60,565 bases of DNA, taken from NCBI GenBank assembly GCA_007128135.1, contig SKYA01000032.1, positions 1-60,565 on the forward strand. Direction: 5' to 3'. The notes beneath the pieces are model-generated. The model had not been told where the DNA came from. It searched no databases and worked only from the letters and a program-made list of their open reading frames with translations. A program made the position numbers and the translations under genes. The DNA comes from Paracoccaceae bacterium. Lineage in GTDB: Bacteria; Pseudomonadota; Alphaproteobacteria; Rhodobacterales; Rhodobacteraceae. The stretch's first letter is position 1, and every line of letters starts with the position of its first letter. Of this stretch, positions 17,646-34,551 are shown piece by piece.

Positions 17646-17939
17646 ATGTTCCGTGCATTCAGATATGGCCGCTGGCTGCTGCCAGTGATGCTGACGGCCT
17701 GTCTGGCCCCACCCGACCTGCCCCCGCGTCAGGCAGCGTCGGATGTCGAGAGCCCGCGACTGCTGCCGCTTTCCGTGCTGCTGGCGCAGGGTGCCGACGG
17801 TCCCAATGCGCCGCGACTGACTGATGCGCCCGATGCGCGCGCCGCAGCACTTCGCGCGCGCGCAGCGCGTTTACGCGGCCAGGTGATTGCTTCGGGCGAA
17901 CGCCAGCGGATGCTGGGTTCAGACGCGCGGTTGCGTTGA
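17646..17939 (+). CDS. Small predicted lipoprotein
   Basis: A 97-residue protein with a short positive N-terminus, a hydrophobic segment and a lipobox, LTAC, placing the lipidated cysteine at residue 19. The mature part is rich in Pro, Ala and Arg (RAAALRARAARLRGQ) and shows no domain I recognise. It overlaps the convergent DUF3445 gene by 21 bases at its 3' end. No good ribosome site was seen. Lipobox and codon usage support a real gene, but the function is unknown. Confidence 0.6.
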   Translation: MFRAFRYGRWLLPVMLTACLAPPDLPPRQAASDVESPRLLPLSVLLAQGADGPNAPRLTDAPDARAAALRARAARLRGQVIASGERQRMLGSDARLR

Positions 17940-18728
17940 ACCTTGTGCCGCATCCTCGATCTCGCGCAGAGCGGCTGCCTCGTCGGGCGAAAGTCCCGAG
18001 CGGTGAATGACCGCCGTATGGATCGAGAAGACCACCGCCCCGCTACGCGCCAGTTTCAGCAGGCACTGGCGTTCGGAACGGATATAGGCGCCGCCATGGT
18101 TCACTGAACCTTGGGTGCGCTCGGACCGGGGCTGGAACAGCGTCGGGTCGTCATAATGAAGCAGATTGGCCCGCCAGAGCGGCTGCTCGGGCCGCATCAG
18201 GTCGAACATGCGCTGCACGCGCGCGCCCATCTGTGTGTCATAGCGCGCCACGGGACGATGAATCCGCATCATCGGCCTGCCCAGCTTTTCGGCAAGCGTC
18301 CAGTGCGAGGGAAAGCACAGCACGGCGCCGGTCAGGATATGTTCCGGGCTGCCTTCGGGCTTTTGCAGCAGGCAGAAATCAGCTTGCAAGAGGTGACCGA
18401 GAGTCCAGAGCGGGCGGTCAGGATCAAGCGTGACCGCGCGTCCGTCGGGACATCGCACGGCATCGCCCGACACGCTGAATCCGTGCGCAGGCAGGTCGCG
18501 CAGCACTTCCCGCAGCAGTTCGCGCGCAGCAGCCTCGGCCTCGGGGAGAAGGCCGATAACCTCGCCAGGGTGCTCGGCAAGAAGCCGTGCGCGCTCGGTC
18601 ATCTGTGGTGCATACGCGGCATCCACGAACACCCAGTCGGCCCGCGCCAGCGGCATGATCCCGGGCAGTCGGCGGCCCGCAGGACGCGTCCAGGGAGCAT
18701 AGGGCAGGGCAGGGTGCAGGATCGGCAT
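17919..18728 (-). CDS. DUF3445 family protein (haem-dependent oxidative N-demethylase-like)
   Basis: The 269-residue protein matches the layout of DUF3445: an N-terminal PYAPWTRPAG...PGIMPL segment, central DRPLWTLGHLLQADFCLL, SPEHILTGAVLCFPSHWTL, and RIHRPVARYD. Known members bind haem and some work in methylamine or dimethylamine demethylation. No methylamine genes are near, so the substrate is open. The ATG at 18728 (MPILHP) gives the family N-terminus; the frame open to 18806 is ignored. It is head-to-head with the YbdK-type ligase across only 77 bases, so the two may share control. Confidence 0.8.
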   Translation of the reverse strand: MPILHPALPYAPWTRPAGRRLPGIMPLARADWVFVDAAYAPQMTERARLLAEHPGEVIGLLPEAEAAARELLREVLRDLPAHGFSVSGDAVRCPDGRAVTLDPDRPLWTLGHLLQADFCLLQKPEGSPEHILTGAVLCFPSHWTLAEKLGRPMMRIHRPVARYDTQMGARVQRMFDLMRPEQPLWRANLLHYDDPTLFQPRSERTQGSVNHGGAYIRSERQCLLKLARSGAVVFSIHTAVIHRSGLSPDEAAALREIEDAAQGSTQPRV

Positions 18729-18805
18729 GATCAGACTGGTAGGCCGCGCCCTTGCCCGCGTCAATTCCTGCTTGCAGGAAGATGAAACCGCGATAGGCTT
18801 GAGCA

Positions 18806-19939
18806 ATGAAAGAGATCTCTCCCGACTACACTCTGGGCATCGAGGAAGAGTATCTTCTGGTTGATGCCGAAACCTGTGCGCTGGTCGATGTGCCCGATGC
18901 GCTGATGCAGGATTGTGTGCGCGAACTGGGCGACAAGGTCTCTCCCGAATTCCTGGCCTGCCAGATCGAGGTCGGCACAGGGGTCTGCGCCGATATTGCC
19001 GAGGCCCGTGCGGATCTGGGCCATCTGCGGCGCACCATTGCCGATTGCGCAGCGCAATACGGCATGGCGCCGCTGGCGGTTTCCTGCCATCCGTTCGCAG
19101 ACTGGCATACCCGCAGGCATACCGAAAGGCAGCGCTACAACGAGCTTGCGCGCGATCTGGCGGGCGTGGTGCGCCGCATGCTGATCTGCGGGATGCATGT
19201 TCATGTCGGCCTGCCCGACGATGACCTGCGCATCGACATCATGCGCCAGGTCACCTATTTCTTGCCGCATCTGCTGGCGCTCTCGACCTCGTCGCCCTTC
19301 TGGGGCGGGCAGGATACCGGGCTGAACAGCTATCGCCTGACCATCTTCGACAACCTGCCGCGCACCGGCCTGCCGCCCGAATTCATCAGCTATGGTGAGT
19401 ATCGTCGTTCGGTCGACACGATCATCAAGGCCGGGCTGATCGAGGACACGACCAAGATCTGGTGGGATATCCGTCCCTCGCATCGCTTCCCCACGCTTGA
19501 AGCCCGTATCTGTGACGTGATGCCATTGATGGAGCATGCGCTGACGGTCGCCGCCCTGGTGCAGTCCATTGCCCGGATGCTGGTGGAACTGCGCCAGCGC
19601 AACCAGCGCTGGCGGATCTATGACCGCTTCCTGATTGCCGAAAACCGCTGGCGTGCGCAGCGTTACGGGCCGCGCGAGGGGCTGCTGGATATCGGCAAGG
19701 GCGAGGTCGTGCCGGTGCCGCAACTGGTCGCGGAACTCATCGAGTTGCTTGAGGCCGATGCCATGGTTCTGGGCTGCCTCAACGAGGTAAGGGCGGCGCA
19801 GGATATCCTGACCCTGGGCACCAGCGCCGAGCGGCAGCGCGCTGTCCATGGTGCGGCGCGCGCCGAAGGCGCGGATGATCACGAGGCGCTGCACGCGGTC
19901 GTGCTCGGGCTGATCGACGAGTTCCGCGAGGGGCTGTGA
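18806..19939 (+). CDS. ybdK: YbdK-type carboxylate-amine ligase (glutamate-cysteine ligase 2 family)
   Basis: The 377-residue protein belongs to the GCS2 family of the glutamine-synthetase-like ATP-dependent ligases. The opening [13 protein letters not shown] supplies the metal-binding GxEEE motif. CGMHVHVGL carries the conserved HVHV, and [20 protein letters not shown] is the family's substrate-site segment. It would join a carboxylate (often glutamate) to an amine. In E. coli YbdK the gamma-glutamylcysteine activity is weak and the true substrate is unsettled. Its divergent partner is the DUF3445 gene. Other amide-bond enzymes in this window are the ATP-grasp at 30573 and its cluster. Confidence 0.88.
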
Positions 19940-23884: not shown

Positions 23885-23990
23885 CGGGTCTCTTGATCCG
23901 GACATGGGGTTACGCACTTTTAACACCGATTTGCTAGCCATGACTTAACGCGCCGGGGTGGTGCGGGTTTGGCACAGGATCGTCTCTCGC

Positions 23991-25220
23991 ATGACCGCAA
24001 CTCCGATGGCGCGACACTCCAGAACGCGGCCCCAGCCGGGCCGGGCGGGGCCTGTGCCCGAAACCGGCCCACCGGAAGTGCCCCCGCCCCCGCCGCTCGC
24101 GCGCGCTGCGCGCCCGGCCGCGCGCCATCGCGGACTGGCGCTTGCAATGGTGCTTGTCGTGGTGATGCCGGTCATTGTCGTTTCAGGCTATCTGTTTTTC
24201 GCAGCGCAGGACCAGTATGCCTCGCGCGCGGGCTTCACGATCCGGCAGGATGACAGTGCCAGCGCCTCGGACATCCTGGGCGGGATGTCGCAACTGCTGT
24301 CAGGCAGCGGCGGCAGCCATGCCGACCTGCTGTTCGAATACCTGCACAGCCAGGAACTGGTCATGCAGGTCGATGCGAGGCTTGATCTGCGTGCACATTT
24401 TGCGCTTGCCTGGCCGCGCGACCCGGTCTTTGCCCTGCCGCCCCGGGGCTCGGTCGATCAGCTCGTGCGTTTCTGGCAACGCATCCTGCGGGTGTCCTTC
24501 GACCGAAATACAGGGTTGCTGCTGGTCGAGGCGCGTGCCAATGATCCGGCCTATGCGCGCGAGATCATCCTTGCGATCGTGGCCTCCAGCGAAGCGATGA
24601 TCAACCAGCTGAACCTGCAGGCGCGGCGCGACCGGATGCGTCTGGCCGAGGCTGATCTGCAACAGGCCGTCACCCGGCTGCGCACTGCGCGCGAGGACCT
24701 GGCCGAGTTCCGAGCCCGCACGCAGATTGTCGATCCCGAGGCCGATATCCAGGGCAGGATGGGCGTACTGAACAACCTGCAACAGAAACTGGCCGAGGCA
24801 TTGGTCGAACATGACCTACTGGCGCTGATCACCGATGCGAATGATCCCCGCCTGCGCCAGTCTGCGCGCCGCGTCGATGTCATCCGCGAGCGCATCGTCG
24901 AAGAGCGCGCGACCTTCGCGCGGCAGGACACCAGCACCGCCGAAACCGACTACCCGCGGCTGATCGCCCAGTTCGAGAGTCTGCTCGTGGAACAGGAGAT
25001 TGCCCAGCAGGGCTACGGCGCCGCGCTGCGCGCGCTGGACCTCGCGCGCTCCAATGCCGAACGCCAGAGCCTGTTTGTCGCCCTGTTCATCCGCCCGACG
25101 CTGACCCAGGAGCCGGGCTATCCGAAGCGGCTCCTGCTGATCGGAATGACGGCGCTTTTCAGCCTGCTGGTATGGGTCTTTGGCGCGCTGGCCTATTATT
25201 CGCTTCGTGACCGGACCTGA
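23991..25220 (+). CDS. kpsE: Capsule export inner-membrane/periplasmic protein (KpsE/Wzz-like)
   Basis: The 409-residue protein has a proline-rich cytoplasmic N-terminus, a first membrane helix (LALAMVLVVVMPVIVVSGYL), a long periplasmic part with coiled-coil character (MRLAEADLQQAVTRLRTARE ... FRARTQIVDPEADIQ), and a second helix near the C-terminus (LLLIGMTALFSLLVWVFGAL). The PxxP-like TLTQEPGYPKR before the last helix is typical of KpsE and polysaccharide co-polymerases. ATG 23991 was chosen over the GTG at 23958. It links the inner-membrane exporter to the outer-membrane channel. The stop overlaps the ribosome site of kpsT. Confidence 0.87.
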   Translation: MTATPMARHSRTRPQPGRAGPVPETGPPEVPPPPPLARAARPAARHRGLALAMVLVVVMPVIVVSGYLFFAAQDQYASRAGFTIRQDDSASASDILGGMSQLLSGSGGSHADLLFEYLHSQELVMQVDARLDLRAHFALAWPRDPVFALPPRGSVDQLVRFWQRILRVSFDRNTGLLLVEARANDPAYAREIILAIVASSEAMINQLNLQARRDRMRLAEADLQQAVTRLRTAREDLAEFRARTQIVDPEADIQGRMGVLNNLQQKLAEALVEHDLLALITDANDPRLRQSARRVDVIRERIVEERATFARQDTSTAETDYPRLIAQFESLLVEQEIAQQGYGAALRALDLARSNAERQSLFVALFIRPTLTQEPGYPKRLLLIGMTALFSLLVWVFGALAYYSLRDRT

Positions 25221-25932: not shown

Positions 25933-27504
25933 ATGCGGGTGCTGCATTACAACTGGGTGGACCCGGCCGACCCTGCCGGACGTGGTGGCGGCGTGCGCAG
26001 TTACATGGCTGCGCTTGTCGCCGAACAGGTGCGGACGCCCGGATACCGCGTCACCACGCTCGCCTCGGGTCTGCTGCATGACCTGCGCCCGCGCCCGCCA
26101 CGCTGGCAGCGGATCAGGCAAGACCATCACGAGATCGTCAATGCGCGCCCGCTCGCCCCCTCGCAGGTCGATTTTGGCGCACGCGCCCAGCACAGCCATC
26201 CGGGTACCGAGGCCGCCTTTGCCGATTTCCTGCGCGCGACTGGCCCCTATGACGTCGTGCATTTCCACACGCTTGAGGGCTTGCCCGCGCGGGTGCTCGA
26301 AATCGCAGCAGAGGTGCCCGGTCAGAAGGTCTGCCTGAGCCTGCACAATTACCACCCGTTTTGCCCGCAGGTGAACCTGTGGTGGCGGGAGTTCGCGCAT
26401 TGCACCGATTTCGAGGGTGGGGTGCGCTGTGCCACCTGCCTGCCGCTGAAGCCCAACCCGAATTCGGTGCTGCGTGCCTATCAGATCGAGACGTCCTGCA
26501 CGCGTGCAGGGTTCGGGCCGGGGCACTGGCTGCATGACCGGCTGCTGCGCCCGGGCCTGCGTCAGGGCTGGCACCTGCTCAAACGGCTGGCGCGGCGCAA
26601 TCCGCCTGCACCGCGGCCCGCAGAAACGGAAGGGACCGCCTTTGCGGCCCGGCGCGCGCGGATGATCACGCTCATCAATGCGCATTGCGCGCGCGTGCTC
26701 GCGGTCTCGCAGCGGACGCAACAACTGGCGCAGGCCTTCGGGCTCGAGCGGGTCGAGACACTCTATATCGGCACCCCCCATGCCCGTGCCTGGACCAGGA
26801 CCGCACCGCGTCCCTGGCCCACGCGATTCAGCCCCGAGTCCCCCTTGCACCTGTGCTATCTGGGCTACATGCGCGCCGACAAGGGCTTTTCCTTCCTGCT
26901 CGAGGCGCTGGCCGCGCTGCCGCGTGCACAGGCCGCGCGCGTGCATCTCAGCGTCGCCGCTCGCCGCGGCCCGCCCGGTATGATGGCACAGATGACAGCG
27001 CTGCGCGACCATCTGGCCGGGCTCGACTGGCGCGACGGTTATACTGCAGCCGATCTCGATACGATCCTCGCGCGGACGGATCTGGGCGTTGTCCCGCCGC
27101 TATGGCAGGACAACCTGCCCCAGACCGCGCTCGAGATGCATGCGCGTCACATCCCGCTTCTGACTTCGGACCGCGGCGGTGCCCGGGAACTGGGCGGCAC
27201 GGATGAGCTGACCTTTCGCGCGGGCGACCCTCGCGATTTCTCAGCCTGTCTTGCGCGCGTGCTCGACGGTCGGTCGGATCTGGCGGCTTATTGGGCACAG
27301 GCGCGCGTTCCGCAGGACATGGTGCAGCATGTGCGGGCATTGCATCACTGCTATGAGGAACTGCATGAAGGCATTGATTCACATCGGAATTCCCAAATCC
27401 GGCACATCCACGATCCAGGCCTTTCTCTCGATGAATCGGGACGCGCTGGCCACGCAGGGGCTGCTGCATGCGCCCTTCAACCCGGATTTCGGCAGTCAGT
27501 ATGA
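25933..27504 (+). CDS. Glycosyltransferase, GT-B fold (GT4-like)
   Basis: A 523-residue cytoplasmic glycosyltransferase of the capsule operon. The N-terminal Rossmann half starts VLHYNWVDPADPAGRGGGVR, with DVVHFHTLEGLPA. The C-terminal donor domain shows LCYLGYMRADKGFSFLLEAL and the late PPLWQDNLPQTALEMHARHI, which occupies the usual E-x7-E position. A cysteine-rich loop (CTDFEGGVRCATC) is unusual. Sequence up to about 27363 looks like protein; the last ~46 residues (from HEGIDSHRN) run through the start of the next gene in another frame. The true C-terminus probably lay near 27366, so the 140-base overlap suggests a late one-base shift. Confidence 0.85.
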   Translation: MRVLHYNWVDPADPAGRGGGVRSYMAALVAEQVRTPGYRVTTLASGLLHDLRPRPPRWQRIRQDHHEIVNARPLAPSQVDFGARAQHSHPGTEAAFADFLRATGPYDVVHFHTLEGLPARVLEIAAEVPGQKVCLSLHNYHPFCPQVNLWWREFAHCTDFEGGVRCATCLPLKPNPNSVLRAYQIETSCTRAGFGPGHWLHDRLLRPGLRQGWHLLKRLARRNPPAPRPAETEGTAFAARRARMITLINAHCARVLAVSQRTQQLAQAFGLERVETLYIGTPHARAWTRTAPRPWPTRFSPESPLHLCYLGYMRADKGFSFLLEALAALPRAQAARVHLSVAARRGPPGMMAQMTALRDHLAGLDWRDGYTAADLDTILARTDLGVVPPLWQDNLPQTALEMHARHIPLLTSDRGGARELGGTDELTFRAGDPRDFSACLARVLDGRSDLAAYWAQARVPQDMVQHVRALHHCYEELHEGIDSHRNSQIRHIHDPGLSLDESGRAGHAGAAACALQPGFRQSV

Positions 27505-28723: not shown

Positions 28724-30397
28724 CTATGCGGTGCGCTGCCAGAGGGTCAGCCGCAAAGACCGGCCGATATGCGGCGCAGGAGGGGGCGGGTCGAGTCCGG
28801 CCGTCATCCGGGCGAACCCCGCAGCCAGCGCGAGCCGGCAGCGCGCAAGTCGGTCGGGTGTGGATGCCAGCCTGATCTGCGCCAGATGCGCGAAAATGGC
28901 CGCGCGCTCGGTCGGGGCAAGCGGTGTTTGCGCAAGTGCCTTCGCCAGTGCGCGCATTGTCAGGGCAGGGCGGGGTGCCAGCGTCAGCAGGCTGGCGGGG
29001 AGCGCGATGATCCGGCTTGTGTCTGGGCAGAGCAGGCGCGCGAGCATGGCCATGGCAACAGGTTCGGGCATTGCACAGAGCGCATCGCGTCGCGCAGGAT
29101 ATGCGGCGCAGAACCGGCGCAGCCCCGAGCGCCGGATCAGCAGCATCGCCGGATCGCAGGCGACTGGACCGGACACCCTTGCCCGCCCGTTGTCCGCCCC
29201 CGCCCCGACCACGACCAGCCGGGCCTTTTGCCGGCATGCCTGCTCCAGAGCGCGCGCAGCCCAGTCGGGGGAAGGACAATCGCCGGCGCGCAGCAGCGTG
29301 ACCCATGGGCTGCGCGCCTGGCAGGCGACATCGAGGCGCGATCGGAGATCCTGCGCATCGATGGCGTGAATCTCGGTGACCGGCAGGGTTTGCACGGCCA
29401 GCGCCCTGCGTGTCTCGCGGGCGGCTGCAGCATCGGTCCCGGCCAGCAGCACGCCCAGCCGCATCTCCGGATCGAGTATCGGAGCGGGGGTGAGCGCGAT
29501 CTCGGGGGCGCCAGCGCGGTCCCAGCGCCAGCCCTGTGCGGCAAACAGCGCGCCGGCTGCGTTCAGGAAGCGCGCCCGCTGCGCGGGTGCGGGGTCCATG
29601 CGCAGGCGTTCGTCCACGGCGCGCGTGGCAAGGCGCGACAGTCCCTTGCGCTGACGGGTCATTCCCGTATCGCGGACGCATTCCGCAACCTCGCGCAACC
29701 GTTCGAGATGCTCGAGCATGCGCCCATCCGCCTGCGCGGTGATCTGGCCCGGACGCCCGAGCCGGTAGCGGTAGAGCGGGCGCGGAAGGTAGCGGATGCG
29801 CCGCGCGCGCACGGCCAGTTCCCAGAAGAAGGGGTGATCCTCATAGAGCGCGCCCTCGCGAAAGCGGGTCGCACCGATGAAGTCGCGGCGATAGAGCTTG
29901 TTCCAGGCCGACGGAAAATGAGCCGCCACGTCGCAGGCATCGAGCAGCGGCAGCCAGCGCGGCCCGCCTTGCACCCCGGCTGCGCCATGGATACCGGAAT
30001 GTGCCACCCGACGGCCATCTGGCCAGGCGAGTATCAATGCCGATGCCGTCCATGGTGAATTCGATCGGACGAGTTCTTCGTGGTGATCGCGCAGGAAGCC
30101 GGGTTCATAGCTGTCGTCGCCATCGAGAAAGGCCACCATGGCCCCGCGCGCCGCGTCAAGCCCGTGATTTCGCGCCGCCGAAAGGCCGCGATGGGGGCTC
30201 GCGATCAGGCGAAAGCGCGCGTCCCCGGCGATGGCGCGCAGCGCAGCATTGCGGGTGCCATCACGCGAGCCATCATCGATGACCAGCGCTTCGAATGCCG
30301 TAAAACTCTGCCCGCGCAGCGAGTCGATGGCCGTGCCGATCAGCCCCTCAAGATCGTGGCAGGGAAGGATGACCGAGATGGCGGGGCTGTCATGCAT
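28724..30397 (-). CDS. GT2-family glycosyltransferase with a degenerate second domain
   Basis: The 557-residue protein has a complete GT2 domain in residues 1-~290: SVILPCHDLEGLIGTAIDSL, VIDDGSRDGT, the nucleotide-sugar FLDGDDS, and AWNKLYRRDFI with EDHPFFWELA. A second ~200-residue unit follows (LGVLLAGTDAAAARETRRAL ... WVTLLRAGDCPSPDWAARAL) that resembles the fold of a GT2 domain but lacks a DxD motif. It likely adds sugars to the capsule or another surface polymer, with the second unit binding or scaffolding. It is convergent with the sulfotransferase-like gene and divergent from the Anbu cluster. Confidence 0.83.
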   Translation of the reverse strand: MHDSPAISVILPCHDLEGLIGTAIDSLRGQSFTAFEALVIDDGSRDGTRNAALRAIAGDARFRLIASPHRGLSAARNHGLDAARGAMVAFLDGDDSYEPGFLRDHHEELVRSNSPWTASALILAWPDGRRVAHSGIHGAAGVQGGPRWLPLLDACDVAAHFPSAWNKLYRRDFIGATRFREGALYEDHPFFWELAVRARRIRYLPRPLYRYRLGRPGQITAQADGRMLEHLERLREVAECVRDTGMTRQRKGLSRLATRAVDERLRMDPAPAQRARFLNAAGALFAAQGWRWDRAGAPEIALTPAPILDPEMRLGVLLAGTDAAAARETRRALAVQTLPVTEIHAIDAQDLRSRLDVACQARSPWVTLLRAGDCPSPDWAARALEQACRQKARLVVVGAGADNGRARVSGPVACDPAMLLIRRSGLRRFCAAYPARRDALCAMPEPVAMAMLARLLCPDTSRIIALPASLLTLAPRPALTMRALAKALAQTPLAPTERAAIFAHLAQIRLASTPDRLARCRLALAAGFARMTAGLDPPPPAPHIGRSLRLTLWQRTA

Positions 30398-30572
30398 GGG
30401 CTGGCGCCGTGTCGCGGGCGGGAACTCGGGTCAGACACTAGGGCAGGACCGTGAAGAAGCCGTTAAGCCGGGCCGGCATGGTCTGCCTGTTTTTTCGGCA
30501 GGCCTGTCGCACATGCTTTACATTCCGCCACGACCTGTCTTTGATGAGGCAAAGCAGGGGAGTTTCCGCTCG

Positions 30573-31991
30573 ATGGCAGAGTCGTTCTTCAACGAGATGT
30601 ATGATCCCAATGGTTTGCGCGCGCCCTATCGGCGGCTCGAGGGCTGGTATCAGGACATGCCCAACGAATTCCGCGCCCTCAAGCAGGCCGAGGCCGAGGA
30701 CCTGTTTCGCCGCTACGGCATCACCTTCGCTGTCTATGGGGAAGGGGGGGACCCGGACCGGCTGATCCCGTTCGACATGTTCCCGCGTGTCTTTGCCGCC
30801 GATGAGTGGCGCAGGCTGGAGCGCGGTATCAAGCAGCGGGCGCGGGCGCTCAATGCGTTTCTTTCGGATGTCTATGACCGGGGCGAAATCATTCGTGCCG
30901 GCCGGATTCCGGCGGATCTGGTCTATCGCAACGAGGCATTCGAGATTGCGGTCGCGGGTTTCCGCCCGCCGCTGGGCGTTTTCAGCCATATCGTCGGTAT
31001 CGATCTGGTACGCACCGGACCGGACCAGTTCTATGTGCTGGAGGATAACTGCCGCACGCCTTCGGGGGTCTCCTACATGCTGGAGAATCGCGAAGTGATG
31101 ATGCGCATGTTCCCCCATCTGTTTCAGGCGAACCGCGTGGCACCGGTGGACAATTACGCGCGGCTGCTGAAGCGCACGCTGGCCTCTGTCGCGCCGGCAA
31201 AATGCGACCGCGACCCCAATATCGTGATCCTGACACCAGGACATTTCAACTCGGCCTATTACGAGCACAGTTTCCTGGCCGACCTGATGGGAGTCGAACT
31301 TGTCGAAGGACAGGACCTGTTCGTCGATGGCGATTTCTGCTGGATGCGGACCACGCAGGGCCCGCGCAAGGTCGATGTCATCTACCGCCGGATCGACGAT
31401 GCCTTCCTCGACCCGCTGTGTTTCCGGCCGGACTCGTCGTTGGGCGTGCCGGGGCTGATGAATGTCTATCGATCGGGTGGCGTGACAATCTGCTCGGCGC
31501 CCGGAGCCGGCGTGGCGGATGACAAGGCGATCTATACCTATGTGCCCGAAATGGTGCGTTTCTATCTGGGCGAGGCGCCGATCCTGGAGAATGTGCCCAC
31601 CTGGCAATGCGCCAGGGCGGATGAACTGAAATATGTTCAGGAACATCTGTCCGAACTGGTGGTGAAGGAGGTCCATGGCTCGGGCGGCTACGGGATGCTT
31701 GTCGGGCCGCGCGCCGACAAGGCCACGATCGAGGCCTTTGCCGCCAAGCTGGCCGAGAATCCGTCCAACTACATCGCCCAGCCGACGCTCGCGCTGTCGA
31801 CCTGCCCCACATTCGTCGAGGATGGCATTGCGCCGCGTCATGTCGATCTGCGGCCCTACTGTCTTGTCGGGCGTGATGTGGAACTGGTTCCCGGGGGGCT
31901 GACGCGCGTGGCGCTGACCGAGGGCTCGCTGGTGGTGAACTCGTCGCAGGGCGGGGGCGTCAAGGATACCTGGGTCATCGCGGAGGAATGA
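30573..31991 (+). CDS. Circularly permuted ATP-grasp protein (Anbu cluster)
   Basis: A 472-residue member of the circularly permuted ATP-grasp type 2 family. The N-terminus FFNEMYDPNG and the segments FYVLEDNCRTPSGVSYMLEN (acidic metal/nucleotide site) and VVKEVHGSGGYGMLVGP (glycine-rich loop) define it. ATG 30573 lies 10 bases after AGGGGAG and gives the usual family N-terminus; an ATG at 30513 would add 20 residues. The family is predicted to form amide or peptide bonds using ATP. It is the first gene of a tightly linked four-gene set with alpha-E, transglutaminase and Anbu; the next ATG is one base past its stop. Confidence 0.9.
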   Translation: MAESFFNEMYDPNGLRAPYRRLEGWYQDMPNEFRALKQAEAEDLFRRYGITFAVYGEGGDPDRLIPFDMFPRVFAADEWRRLERGIKQRARALNAFLSDVYDRGEIIRAGRIPADLVYRNEAFEIAVAGFRPPLGVFSHIVGIDLVRTGPDQFYVLEDNCRTPSGVSYMLENREVMMRMFPHLFQANRVAPVDNYARLLKRTLASVAPAKCDRDPNIVILTPGHFNSAYYEHSFLADLMGVELVEGQDLFVDGDFCWMRTTQGPRKVDVIYRRIDDAFLDPLCFRPDSSLGVPGLMNVYRSGGVTICSAPGAGVADDKAIYTYVPEMVRFYLGEAPILENVPTWQCARADELKYVQEHLSELVVKEVHGSGGYGMLVGPRADKATIEAFAAKLAENPSNYIAQPTLALSTCPTFVEDGIAPRHVDLRPYCLVGRDVELVPGGLTRVALTEGSLVVNSSQGGGVKDTWVIAEE

Positions 31992-31992
31992 G

Positions 31993-32946
31993 ATGCTGAG
32001 CCGCACCGCCGCCAATCTGTTCTGGATGGCCCGTTATCTCGAACGGTCGGAAACGACCGCGCGCCTGCTGGATCTGGGGTTCCGAAATGCGCTGATGCCC
32101 AATACCGGCGGGGGCTACCGCAACGAATGGAGCGCGATCCTGCAGAGCAAGGGGACGTTGCAGAACTTCACCGAGAAATACGGCGAGTTGAAGCAGCGCA
32201 ATGTCGAGAGCTTCCTGTTCTTCGATCAGGACAACCCCTCTTCCGTGGCCAGCTGCATCACCGCGGCGCGCGAGAATGCCCGGATCGTGCGCACCGCGCT
32301 GACCACGCAGGTCTGGGATGCCATCAACACCAGCTTTCAGGAACTCAAGGCGCTCATGCGGCGCGAACGCTCGTCACTGGAAGTGCCCGAACTGACGGAT
32401 TGGACCCTGCGCACGGCGGCACTGATCCGCGGTGCCATTGAGACCACGCAGTTGCGCAATGACGGCTACCGGTTCATGAATCTGGGCTATGCGGTCGAGC
32501 GCGCGGACAACACCGCGCGACTGCTGGACGTGAAATACTATGTGCTGCTGCCTTCGGTCGCCTATGTCGGCTCGGGGCTGGACAACTACCAATGGACGAC
32601 GCTGCTGCGCGCGCTTTCGGCGCACCGTGCCTATAACTGGGCCTATGGCGGCGAACTCAGCGCCGCGCAGATTGCGCATTTCCTGATCCTGAACCCGAAA
32701 TTCCCGCGCTCGCTTCTGTCCTGCTGTCTGGAAGTCAACGAGCATCTCGACCATCTGGCGCGCATCTATGATCGCACGACCACGGCGCAGGAAGCCGCCC
32801 GCAGGCTGCTGGCCGAGCTTGTCGAGGCGCAGATCGAGGATGTGTTCGACGAGGGGCTGCATGAATTCCTGACCCGGATGATCTCGCAGAATGCCGGGCT
32901 GGGTCAGTGCATACATGACCAGTATCTGACCGGAGAGGCGCGATGA
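31993..32946 (+). CDS. Alpha-E domain protein (DUF403), Anbu cluster
   Basis: The 317-residue all-helical protein starts MLSRTAANLFWMARYLERSE, the diagnostic alpha-E opening, and continues with ARENARIVRTALTTQVWDAI and LGYAVERADNTARLLDVKYY. Its function is not established. The constant association with the circularly permuted ATP-grasp suggests it is a partner or processing factor for that enzyme's product. It starts one base after the ATP-grasp stop and overlaps the transglutaminase start by 4 bases, so translation is probably coupled. Confidence 0.92.
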   Translation: MLSRTAANLFWMARYLERSETTARLLDLGFRNALMPNTGGGYRNEWSAILQSKGTLQNFTEKYGELKQRNVESFLFFDQDNPSSVASCITAARENARIVRTALTTQVWDAINTSFQELKALMRRERSSLEVPELTDWTLRTAALIRGAIETTQLRNDGYRFMNLGYAVERADNTARLLDVKYYVLLPSVAYVGSGLDNYQWTTLLRALSAHRAYNWAYGGELSAAQIAHFLILNPKFPRSLLSCCLEVNEHLDHLARIYDRTTTAQEAARRLLAELVEAQIEDVFDEGLHEFLTRMISQNAGLGQCIHDQYLTGEAR

Positions 32947-33761
32947 TCCTGAATGTGCTGCACAAGACCCGCTACGAATTCGCAACCCCTGTCGGCGGCA
33001 TCATCCAGAGCCTCAGGCTGATCCCAGCGCGCTGTGAGGGACAGACCGTGATCGACTGGAGGGTCGAGGTGGCGGGCGCGGTGATGGGCGAGGTGTTCCG
33101 CGACGGGGCAGGGGACTACATCCAGACCGCATCGCTGCGCACCCGGACCAGTAATATCGAGGTCATCGTCAACGGAACGATCGAGACGCGGGATTGTGCA
33201 GGGGTGTTGCGGGGCCATCGCGAGCGGGTACCGCCGCGCGCCTATATGCGCAACACCCCACGCACCGCACCGAACCGCGCCATCCGCGAACTGGCCGAGC
33301 AGGCTCTGGCCGGGATGGAGGCGGCCAGTGCGCTGGAGCAGGCGCATGCACTGGCCTCTGCGGTGCACGGGGCGCTGCCCTATCTGCCGGGCGCGACTCA
33401 TGCCCATACCACCGCCGCCGAGGCGATGAACGAAGGCGCGGGCGTCTGTCAGGATCATACGCATGTCCTGATTGCCTGTGCGCATCTGGCCGACCTACCC
33501 GCGCGCTATGTCTCGGGCTATCTGAATGCCAGTGAGGACGGCACACCGCATGAGGCGAGCCATGCCTGGGCCGAGATTTTCGTGGACGGGCTGGGCTGGG
33601 TGGGGTTCGATGCATCGAACGAATCCTGTCCGAACGAGCATTACATCCGTCTTGGTTCCGGGCTCGATGCGCAGGATGCCGCGCCGATCCGCGGTCTGGT
33701 CCTGGGCGGGACAGAGGAGAGTCTGGATGTGACGGTCGTGATCGAGGCACAGCAGCAATGA
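32943..33761 (+). CDS. Transglutaminase-like cysteine protein, Anbu cluster
   Basis: The 272-residue protein has the N-terminal beta-rich cap typical of this family (LNVLHKTRYEFATPVGGIIQ) and a papain-like catalytic core. The triad is visible as Cys in GVCQDHTHVLI, His in ASHAWAEIF and Asp in VGFDASN. Bacterial members are more likely peptidases or amide-exchange enzymes than crosslinkers. Its start overlaps the alpha-E stop (ATGA). It lies 67 bases before the Anbu gene, so the two could act on the same peptide product. Confidence 0.9.
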   Translation: MILNVLHKTRYEFATPVGGIIQSLRLIPARCEGQTVIDWRVEVAGAVMGEVFRDGAGDYIQTASLRTRTSNIEVIVNGTIETRDCAGVLRGHRERVPPRAYMRNTPRTAPNRAIRELAEQALAGMEAASALEQAHALASAVHGALPYLPGATHAHTTAAEAMNEGAGVCQDHTHVLIACAHLADLPARYVSGYLNASEDGTPHEASHAWAEIFVDGLGWVGFDASNESCPNEHYIRLGSGLDAQDAAPIRGLVLGGTEESLDVTVVIEAQQQ

Positions 33762-33828
33762 GGCGCTTGCGCGGGCCTGCCTGCGGGGCTACCACCTGAC
33801 AGTCGTACCGAAAAAGGAAGAGGACGCA

Positions 33829-34551
33829 ATGACCTATTGCGTGGGGCTGAGGCTGAACGCCGGACTTGTGCTGTTGTCGGACACGCGCACCAATGCCGGA
33901 CTCGACAATATCTCGACCTATCGCAAGATGTTCACCTTCCAGGAACCGGGTGAACGGGTCATCGTGATGATGACCGCAGGCAATCTCTCGGTCACGCAGA
34001 CCACGCTGGCACGCCTTCAGGAGGCCATCGATGATGTGGACGCCACGCATGAGACCTCGATCCTGAAGGCGGAGAACATGCTCGCGGTCGCCACGATCGT
34101 GGGCGAAATGCTCTCGCGGGTGACTGCGGAGACGCGCACGCGGATGGACCGGATGGAGCAGGCCGCCTCGGCCTCGATGATTGTCGCGGGCCAGCGCAAG
34201 GGCGGGCAGATGCGGCTGTTCCTGATCTATCCAGAGGGCAATTTCATCGAGGCCACCGAGGACACGCCGTATCTGCAGATCGGCGAGCACAAATACGGCA
34301 AGCCGATCCTTGACCGGGTTATTACGGTGAACACGCCTCTTGTGGACGCGAAGAAAGCTGCCCTGCTGTCGATGGATTCGACCCTGCGCTCGAACCTGAG
34401 CGTGGGCATGCCGCTCGATCTGGTCGTGATCGAGGCAGATACGATGCGTATTGCCGAGCAGCGCCGGATCAGCGCCAATGACGAGGATTTCGCCGCCATG
34501 TCGGCGGCCTGGTCGCAAGCGCTGCGCGATGCTTTCACGCAGATCGGCTGA
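33829..34551 (+). CDS. Anbu-type proteasome-like Ntn-hydrolase
   Basis: The 240-residue protein matches the Anbu family, distant relatives of proteasome beta subunits and HslV. It starts MTYCVGLRLNAGLVLLSDTR, placing the predicted nucleophile Thr at residue 2, Asp at 18 and Lys at 33 (STYRKMF). Unlike many beta subunits it has no propeptide beyond Met1. Anbu proteins form open-ring or helical assemblies and no partner ATPase is present here. The physiological substrate is unknown. It is preceded by AAAAGGAAGAGG and is the last gene of the cluster; a hairpin follows at 34609. Confidence 0.92.
   Translation: MTYCVGLRLNAGLVLLSDTRTNAGLDNISTYRKMFTFQEPGERVIVMMTAGNLSVTQTTLARLQEAIDDVDATHETSILKAENMLAVATIVGEMLSRVTAETRTRMDRMEQAASASMIVAGQRKGGQMRLFLIYPEGNFIEATEDTPYLQIGEHKYGKPILDRVITVNTPLVDAKKAALLSMDSTLRSNLSVGMPLDLVVIEADTMRIAEQRRISANDEDFAAMSAAWSQALRDAFTQIG

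Follow-up and report, generated by a model that had tools for sequence, protein, structure and literature searches.

The stretch of DNA examined here, 60,565 nucleotides long and from a Paracoccaceae bacterium (the window), carries on its forward strand, between positions 30573 and 34551, tightly packed genes for a predicted amide-forming ligase, two partner proteins and the proteasome-like protein Anbu, and the question it raises is what these four do together. An earlier note on this DNA had taken them to be a complete set, spaced by 1, −4 and 67 bases and linked in an amide-forming pathway. Positions of the open reading frames (ORFs) and Pfam matches agree with that layout, and we identify the locus as a standard copy of the published Anbu operon (PMC5666114, PMC6376114), a system that is already known. 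Our reading, to which we give an even chance of being right, is that the operon encodes an amide-conjugation module linked to nitrogen limitation, of which Anbu would be the dedicated hydrolase. The genes, and the region ahead of them, are:

30398–30572, forward strand: upstream region shared with a divergent glycosyltransferase gene, covered by our promoter and hairpin searches

30573–31991, forward strand: circularly permuted ATP-grasp protein (CP-ATP-grasp, CP_ATPgrasp_2), a predicted amide or peptide ligase of 472 amino acids; PF14403, 542 bits, E 1.2e-162

31993–32946, forward strand: Alpha-E protein of 317 amino acids; PF04168, 309 bits, E 6e-92

32943–33761, forward strand: transglutaminase-like (papain-fold) enzyme with Bact_transglu_N, 272 amino acids; PF08379, 53.5 bits, and PF01841, 71 bits

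33829–34551, forward strand: Anbu, a proteasome-like N-terminal nucleophile (Ntn) hydrolase of 240 amino acids; PF00227, 32 bits (cut-off 22.4), and solved Anbu chains

The four families stand in the expected order on one strand, Anbu begins with Met-Thr and has the conserved Asp and Lys, and no AAA+ partner gene is present in the cluster or among the scanned neighbours. Three of the proteins match their families strongly, and although the general PF00227 model scores Anbu low, its identity is firm as judged by its likeness to solved Anbu chains (5loy, 5nyj, 5nyf, 5nyw and 5lox; E 9.5e-76 to 4e-62), and Thr2, Asp18 and Lys33, which the earlier note had called intact, are present and conserved in 99%, 100% and 100% of the aligned rows. 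Alignments with relatives from across Pseudomonadota held 100, 99, 87 and 95 rows for ATP-grasp, Alpha-E, transglutaminase and Anbu, respectively, counting the window and dropping rows outside length limits, and in none of them does the window depart from the consensus at a column conserved at 95% or more. In the transglutaminase-like enzyme C169, H207 and D223, which we take from the family to be the catalytic triad, are present and conserved in 99–100% of rows, and 3isr is a distant solved relative (E 1.2e-13). The ATP-grasp protein is the sole PF14403 match in its own genome and resembles the solved protein 3n6x over nearly its full length (residues 6–470, E 4.8e-191); 3n6x is called a glutathionylspermidine synthase only putatively, and we know of no substrate for it. 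The mechanical ORF of the ATP-grasp gene opens at 30231, but the ATG at 30573 is preceded by a GGGGAG stretch. None of the four cluster proteins matched NCBIfam, and Anbu presumably corresponds to COG3484. All four genes are intact with no hint of decay. The same four families, order and Anbu residues, again with no AAA+ gene, are described for the operons of Pseudomonas, Yersinia and others (PMC5666114, PMC6376114), in papers that cite Valas and Bourne 2008 and Iyer et al. 2009 as earlier accounts; the sole difference found is that the window has no convincing sigma54-type promoter and that rpoN was not found in its genome.

How the four families travel together was examined with profile searches of 299 Pseudomonadota genomes, in which ATP-grasp was counted above the PF14403 cut-off. 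CP-ATP-grasp was found in 171 genomes and Alpha-E (PF04168) in 171, and the listed genomes are identical (three extra ATP-grasp matches, in G021, G135 and G296, are sub-threshold); in this sample the pair is indivisible. Anbu occurs in 115 genomes, 113 of which also have Alpha-E, with only 2 among the 128 genomes that lack Alpha-E, and the two proteins are found together in 32 of the 47 families having Alpha-E. The Fisher p of 1e-35 for this association, not corrected for kinship, overstates independence because the genomes are related. A further 58 genomes have the ATP-grasp/Alpha-E pair but no Anbu match. Since 113 of the 115 Anbu genomes lie inside the 171, Anbu looks like an add-on to the pair, suggesting that it depends on ATP-grasp and Alpha-E and not the reverse. 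ATP-grasp is directly upstream of Alpha-E on the same strand in all of the best 30 Alpha-E loci, and at three loci (L170, L172, L173) a second ATP-grasp/Alpha-E paralogue is one continuous open frame, which argues for a physical partnership.

Gene order in related genomes, which the earlier note had proposed to look at, is kept. We compared 116 Anbu loci, 115 from other genomes plus the window, in stretches that reach up to ~9 kb to either side and in some cases stop early at a contig end. At 82 of them ATP-grasp, Alpha-E, transglutaminase and Anbu follow one another in this order on a single strand, 80 with nothing else and 2 with an extra transglutaminase match; leaving aside loci with Anbu alone, the remainder are rearranged or have no transglutaminase match. 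The same order is found in 68 of 80 named near relatives, these being the best 80 of at least 583, mostly Rhodobacteraceae-type records, with some of the other 12 cut by contig ends. Median gaps across 81 loci are 7, 9 and 53 bp. Together, co-occurrence and gene order support the functional link claimed for the four genes, which is itself a published proposal. The word complete fits this copy in that all four genes are present, but elsewhere the transglutaminase seems dispensable in some lineages: five Anbu loci (L144, L149, L156, L160, L162) have ATP-grasp and Alpha-E with no transglutaminase match in the fetched stretch, as sought by tblastn with the window protein, which can miss divergent ones, and two of their genomes (G031 and G230) have no Bact_transglu_N match anywhere. 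A fifth conserved gene was sought among 10948 flanking ORFs of at least 60 amino acids from 196 loci, excluding overlaps with the four genes and leaving out ORFs below 60 amino acids, and was rejected, as the 60 largest clusters show only local synteny of near relatives or broad families at varying places (two members scanned are an ABC transporter ATPase and a short-chain dehydrogenase).

Some loci depart from this layout. In family f8, 6 of 9 loci (L103, L104, L109, L111, L115, L118) have 0.7 to 3.2 kb between transglutaminase and Anbu. A second Anbu clade, which branches deeply and holds 20 of the 125 tree rows, includes eight loci (L166, L167, L170, L172, L173, L175, L176 and L177) whose Anbu lies close to a second ATP-grasp and to additional transglutaminase matches; these loci have a more canonical pair as well.

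Alpha-E, invariably paired with the predicted ligase in the sampled genomes, consists of two homologous halves, with the cut at 152/153 in the window protein. Aligning the halves with hhalign gave a probability of 99.3, an E of 1.2e-20 and a score of 122.8, compared with 9.6 to 16.1 in 20 column-shuffled controls, and blastp of half against half at E ≤ 1e-3 recovered the repeat in 67 of 99 Alpha-E sequences and in none of 99 shuffled ones. Each half has an E-R-x5-R motif (E17, R18 and R24; E169, R170 and R176), with these residues kept in 95 to 99 of the 99 sequences. The Pfam text for PF04168 mentions a conserved ER motif, yet the family is modelled as one domain of 294 positions. No clear solved sequence relative was found in the PDB, where the single match has an E of 0.63. 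An AlphaFold2 model built from 67 sequences has a mean predicted local distance difference test score (pLDDT) of 89.7 and a predicted template modelling score (pTM) of 0.89, and Foldseek with this model returned nothing at E ≤ 0.001 in the PDB or in BFVD (viral models), which is no proof of a new fold. Neither the Alpha-E duplication nor a substrate turned up in the literature searched; more may be said in Iyer et al. 2009 and Hervas et al. 2009.

A connection to nitrogen limitation, for this cluster or for a sister form lacking Anbu, is found in published work on relatives. Passages of PMC5491218 give log2 changes in a B. cenocepacia ntrC mutant of −8.2 (DUF404/407), −9.4 (DUF403), and −9.4 and −6.0 (transglutaminases). 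That cluster, I35_5080-83, has ATP-grasp, Alpha-E and transglutaminase in the same locus-number order, with a second, large transglutaminase in fourth place; an experimental demonstration of nitrogen control (PMC5491218) sets it further apart from the window's copy. P. putida PP_2686-2688 are reported as 11 to 15-fold up under nitrogen limitation (PMC7801951), domains of the operon are associated with urea metabolism in metagenomes (PMC3597751), and COG3484 is named in a predicted sigma54 regulon (PMC12316311). An RpoN study in Bradyrhizobium predicts a site before an ATP-grasp gene whose family could not be identified (PMC13207237).

At 92 loci we surveyed the 300 bases that precede ATP-grasp. 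These loci are what is left of the 116 after removal of those whose sequence was too short or in which no ATP-grasp lay upstream on the same strand at a distance of 7 kb or less. The sigma54-type pattern [TC]GGC[AGC][CT]-N5-[TA]TGC is present upstream at 34 of them. The control counts are 0 for the same stretches read as reverse complement, 3 and 2 for the two strands of the region after Anbu, and 1 and 1 for the interior of the gene, and the strict form TGGCAC-N5-TTGC is found at 7 of 92 and in none of the controls. The 34 positive loci span ten families, with 9 from f2 and 8 from f8. When sites were scored by the number of bases shared with the consensus, GG and GC being obligatory, 29 of 152 loci scored 9 or 10 out of 11, where shuffles lead one to expect 3.6. 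For the 92 loci, rpoN is present in 76 of the genomes and was not found in 16; a sigma54-type match is seen in 32 of the former and 2 of the latter (p 0.04), and a tighter pattern in 28 and 1 (p 0.02). The pattern is rare among 66 named near relatives of the window (7 of 66, controls 0 to 3).

Sigma54 control of the window's own copy is unlikely. Its upstream region has no hit to the pattern and no sigma70 consensus match, and the best sigma54-type match is degenerate: it lies 66 bases before the ATG and agrees with 9 of the 11 specified bases but has neither the GG nor the GC dinucleotide. The sigma54 protein (PF04963) has no match in the genome, a 95%-complete assembly, and is also missing in 10 of 16 other Anbu-bearing genomes of the family (f1); of the two features expected of an NtrC/sigma54 cluster of the B. 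cenocepacia type, neither a convincing −24/−12 promoter ahead of the ATP-grasp gene nor rpoN in the genome was found. Because rpoN was not found in an assembly this complete, nitrogen control here, if any, would have to be of another kind. The region also holds a terminator-like hairpin at 30469–30485 with a T run (30469–30506 taken together), and a stretch like CTGCCTGTTTTTT upstream of the gene is found in L181 as well and is absent from L179 and L183.

A number of results weigh against our reading. Over half of the surveyed loci (58 of 92) have no sigma54-type match, and with a looser pattern the contrast shrinks to 38 of 92 upstream and 5, 9, 3, 16 and 7 in the controls. The association between site and rpoN is weak and uncorrected for kinship. 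NtrC-type dyads, sought by pattern, show no clear enrichment: 7 of the 92 loci have one upstream, 9 have one within the gene and none has one downstream (5, 2 and 0 in a tighter form). The P. putida Anbu gene, PP_2685, was uninduced in the wild type (1.12-fold), and PP_2686-2688 were still induced 14 to 20-fold in an rpoN mutant (PMC7801951). Anbu from Yersinia, Pseudomonas and one further source cleaved none of three peptide substrates, and no complex between YbAnbu and its operon partners could be detected, nor did YbAnbu stimulate ATP-grasp (PMC6376114); lack of peptidase activity and of a complex is compatible with an unusual substrate and does not show one. Anbu stands alone in the stretch fetched at 15 of the 116 loci. 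It is also alone in several named Paracoccaceae loci, where five of six genomes searched (L220, L228, L230, L233, L255 and L215, with a seventh, L200, left out) carry ATP-grasp elsewhere. The clearest natural exception to the operon rule is provided by G094 and G248, two genomes of one genus (L164 and L165), both rated 100% complete, whose Anbu has T2, D18 and K33 and in which whole-genome searches found no match to ATP-grasp, Alpha-E or Bact_transglu_N; ORFs scanned near Anbu in G248 encode a short-chain dehydrogenase, a beta-hexosaminidase and two sensor kinases.

What Anbu acts on bears directly on the choice between explanations. The earlier note stated that no unfoldase accompanies Anbu here, and none was found in the cluster or among the window ORFs scanned with Pfam, which were a sample and in which Lon- and FtsH-type ATPases were not searched for. 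All 7 PF07724 (AAA_2) matches of the genome are on other contigs, and its other PF00227 protein, probably HslV, adjoins an AAA_2 protein on contig C1. In common with HslV and 20S proteasome beta subunits, Anbu has the Ntn fold and a Thr/Asp/Lys site (PMC6376114), but no cognate unfoldase was found encoded alongside it. No AAA+ partner is reported for any Anbu in the passages of PMC5666114 and PMC6376114, and a missing ATPase is therefore the normal state. The step from there to a small peptide as the likelier substrate does not follow, given that these papers report none for any Anbu and that Fuchs et al. 2017 (PMC5666114) conclude that it degrades protein.

If Fuchs et al. are right, Anbu could be a general ATP-independent degradative protease resembling an uncapped 20S particle, raising turnover under nitrogen shortage, with its partners only regulating or modifying it. 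Their argument is from proteasome-inhibitor binding and the many identical sites of the ring, which in crystal structures of relatives is a dodecameric open split ring (PMC5666114), and the genomes with Anbu and no partners agree with it. A free-standing protease would not need the ATP-grasp and Alpha-E that accompany Anbu in 113 of 115 genomes, however, and no peptidase activity was seen on the three proteasome substrates (PMC6376114), so we regard this explanation as possible but rather unlikely. Protein tagging, the proposal of Iyer et al. 2009 as cited in PMC6376114, fits the nesting of Anbu inside the ligase pair: the ligase and transglutaminase would decorate proteins with an amino acid or a peptide, and Anbu, like a deubiquitinating or depupylating enzyme, would take it off again. 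We consider it unlikely, as no tag precursor was found at a fixed place across diverse loci (within the bounds of the fifth-gene search given above) and passages of the cited papers report no tagged protein.

It is also conceivable that Anbu is itself a transferase, with an acyl group on its Thr being re-ligated onto a second amine; connectase, which is homologous to the proteasome, acts as a protein ligase (PMC8665760). Transfer by Anbu would reconcile kept catalytic residues with peptidase inactivity on the substrates tested (PMC6376114), but no transfer by Anbu is reported in the passages of the cited papers, and ligase activity belongs to connectase along with a helical insertion and a monomeric state, whereas Anbu is an open split ring (PMC8665760). 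We think this highly improbable.

The conjugation module that we favour builds on the gene content, order, conserved residues, strict ATP-grasp/Alpha-E pairing, nesting of Anbu and sigma54-type matches in relatives observed here, and on the strong NtrC dependence in Burkholderia, induction by nitrogen limitation in Pseudomonas and release of inorganic phosphate (Pi) from ATP by the Yersinia enzyme YbATP-grasp (PMC6376114) established by others. We infer from these the formation of a bond, its direction, the order of the steps and the role of Anbu. ATP-grasp and Alpha-E, as an obligatory pair, would spend ATP to form an amide bond, either peptide or isopeptide; the papain-fold enzyme would trim, deamidate or transfer the product, and Anbu would act as an optional ATP-independent Ntn-hydrolase on the conjugate or on its carrier. 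The product may be a small molecule or a protein conjugate. The pathway would be part of the nitrogen-shortage response in many lineages, and its likeliest use would be reversible amide conjugation for the storage or recycling of amino nitrogen, or the marking of proteins for it. In a more daring form, which we judge quite doubtful, ATP-grasp and Alpha-E would be an uncharacterised two-component ligase in which Alpha-E, all-helical and internally duplicated, serves as the substrate carrier and offers two quasi-equivalent E-R-x5-R sites; the pair would make a nitrogen-starvation conjugate and Anbu would be its dedicated deconjugase, giving a reversible cycle like those of ubiquitin or Pup with neither a protein tag nor an unfoldase.

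The neighbourhood of the cluster gives no functional hint. Downstream lie an ArsR-type regulator and ATP synthase F0 genes, and the features on the other side are:

17919–18806, reverse strand: HODM-like haem demethylase gene, beside the GCS2 gene (Pfam scan)

18806–19939, forward strand: GCS2 protein, a YbdK-type carboxylate-amine ligase; NF010039, 503 bits, cut-off 371

23958–25220: KpsE-like gene (188 bits, below cut-off), polysaccharide-type, upstream of the cluster

25933–27504: glycosyltransferase gene, polysaccharide-type, upstream of the cluster

28724–30397: GT2 glycosyltransferase gene, polysaccharide-type, upstream of and divergent from the cluster

The GCS2 ligase had been put forward as a second amide-forming activity of interest, and it is a real amine-ligase gene, but we found nothing to tie it to the cluster: it lies 10.6 kb away, with ribD, KpsE-like and glycosyltransferase genes between, and is a separate gene of known YbdK-type. 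A second, stronger GCS2 match is on contig C105 of the genome, and a 343-amino-acid ORF with no Pfam match also stands beside the GCS2 gene. In the Anbu tree the window groups with Roseinatronobacter and Natronohydrobacter with strong support. The sister group of this clade consists of other rows, mostly Paracoccaceae, and next come G205, of the same class, and G180, of another class. Of 16 other sampled members of the window's family, 13 stand in a separate distant clade; read for signs of horizontal transfer, the tree shows two old lineages within one family.

The Anbu operon is very common, with Alpha-E in 171 and Anbu in 115 of the 299 Pseudomonadota genomes, yet the cited papers assign it no established function. 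These results narrow the question to ATP-grasp and Alpha-E as one enzyme, to nitrogen limitation, and to Anbu acting on the product of the pair and not on proteasome peptides. Natural controls exist in the two genomes with Anbu only and the 58 with the pair but no Anbu match. The value of this locus lies in a sharper, testable form of an old question, more than in the copy itself.

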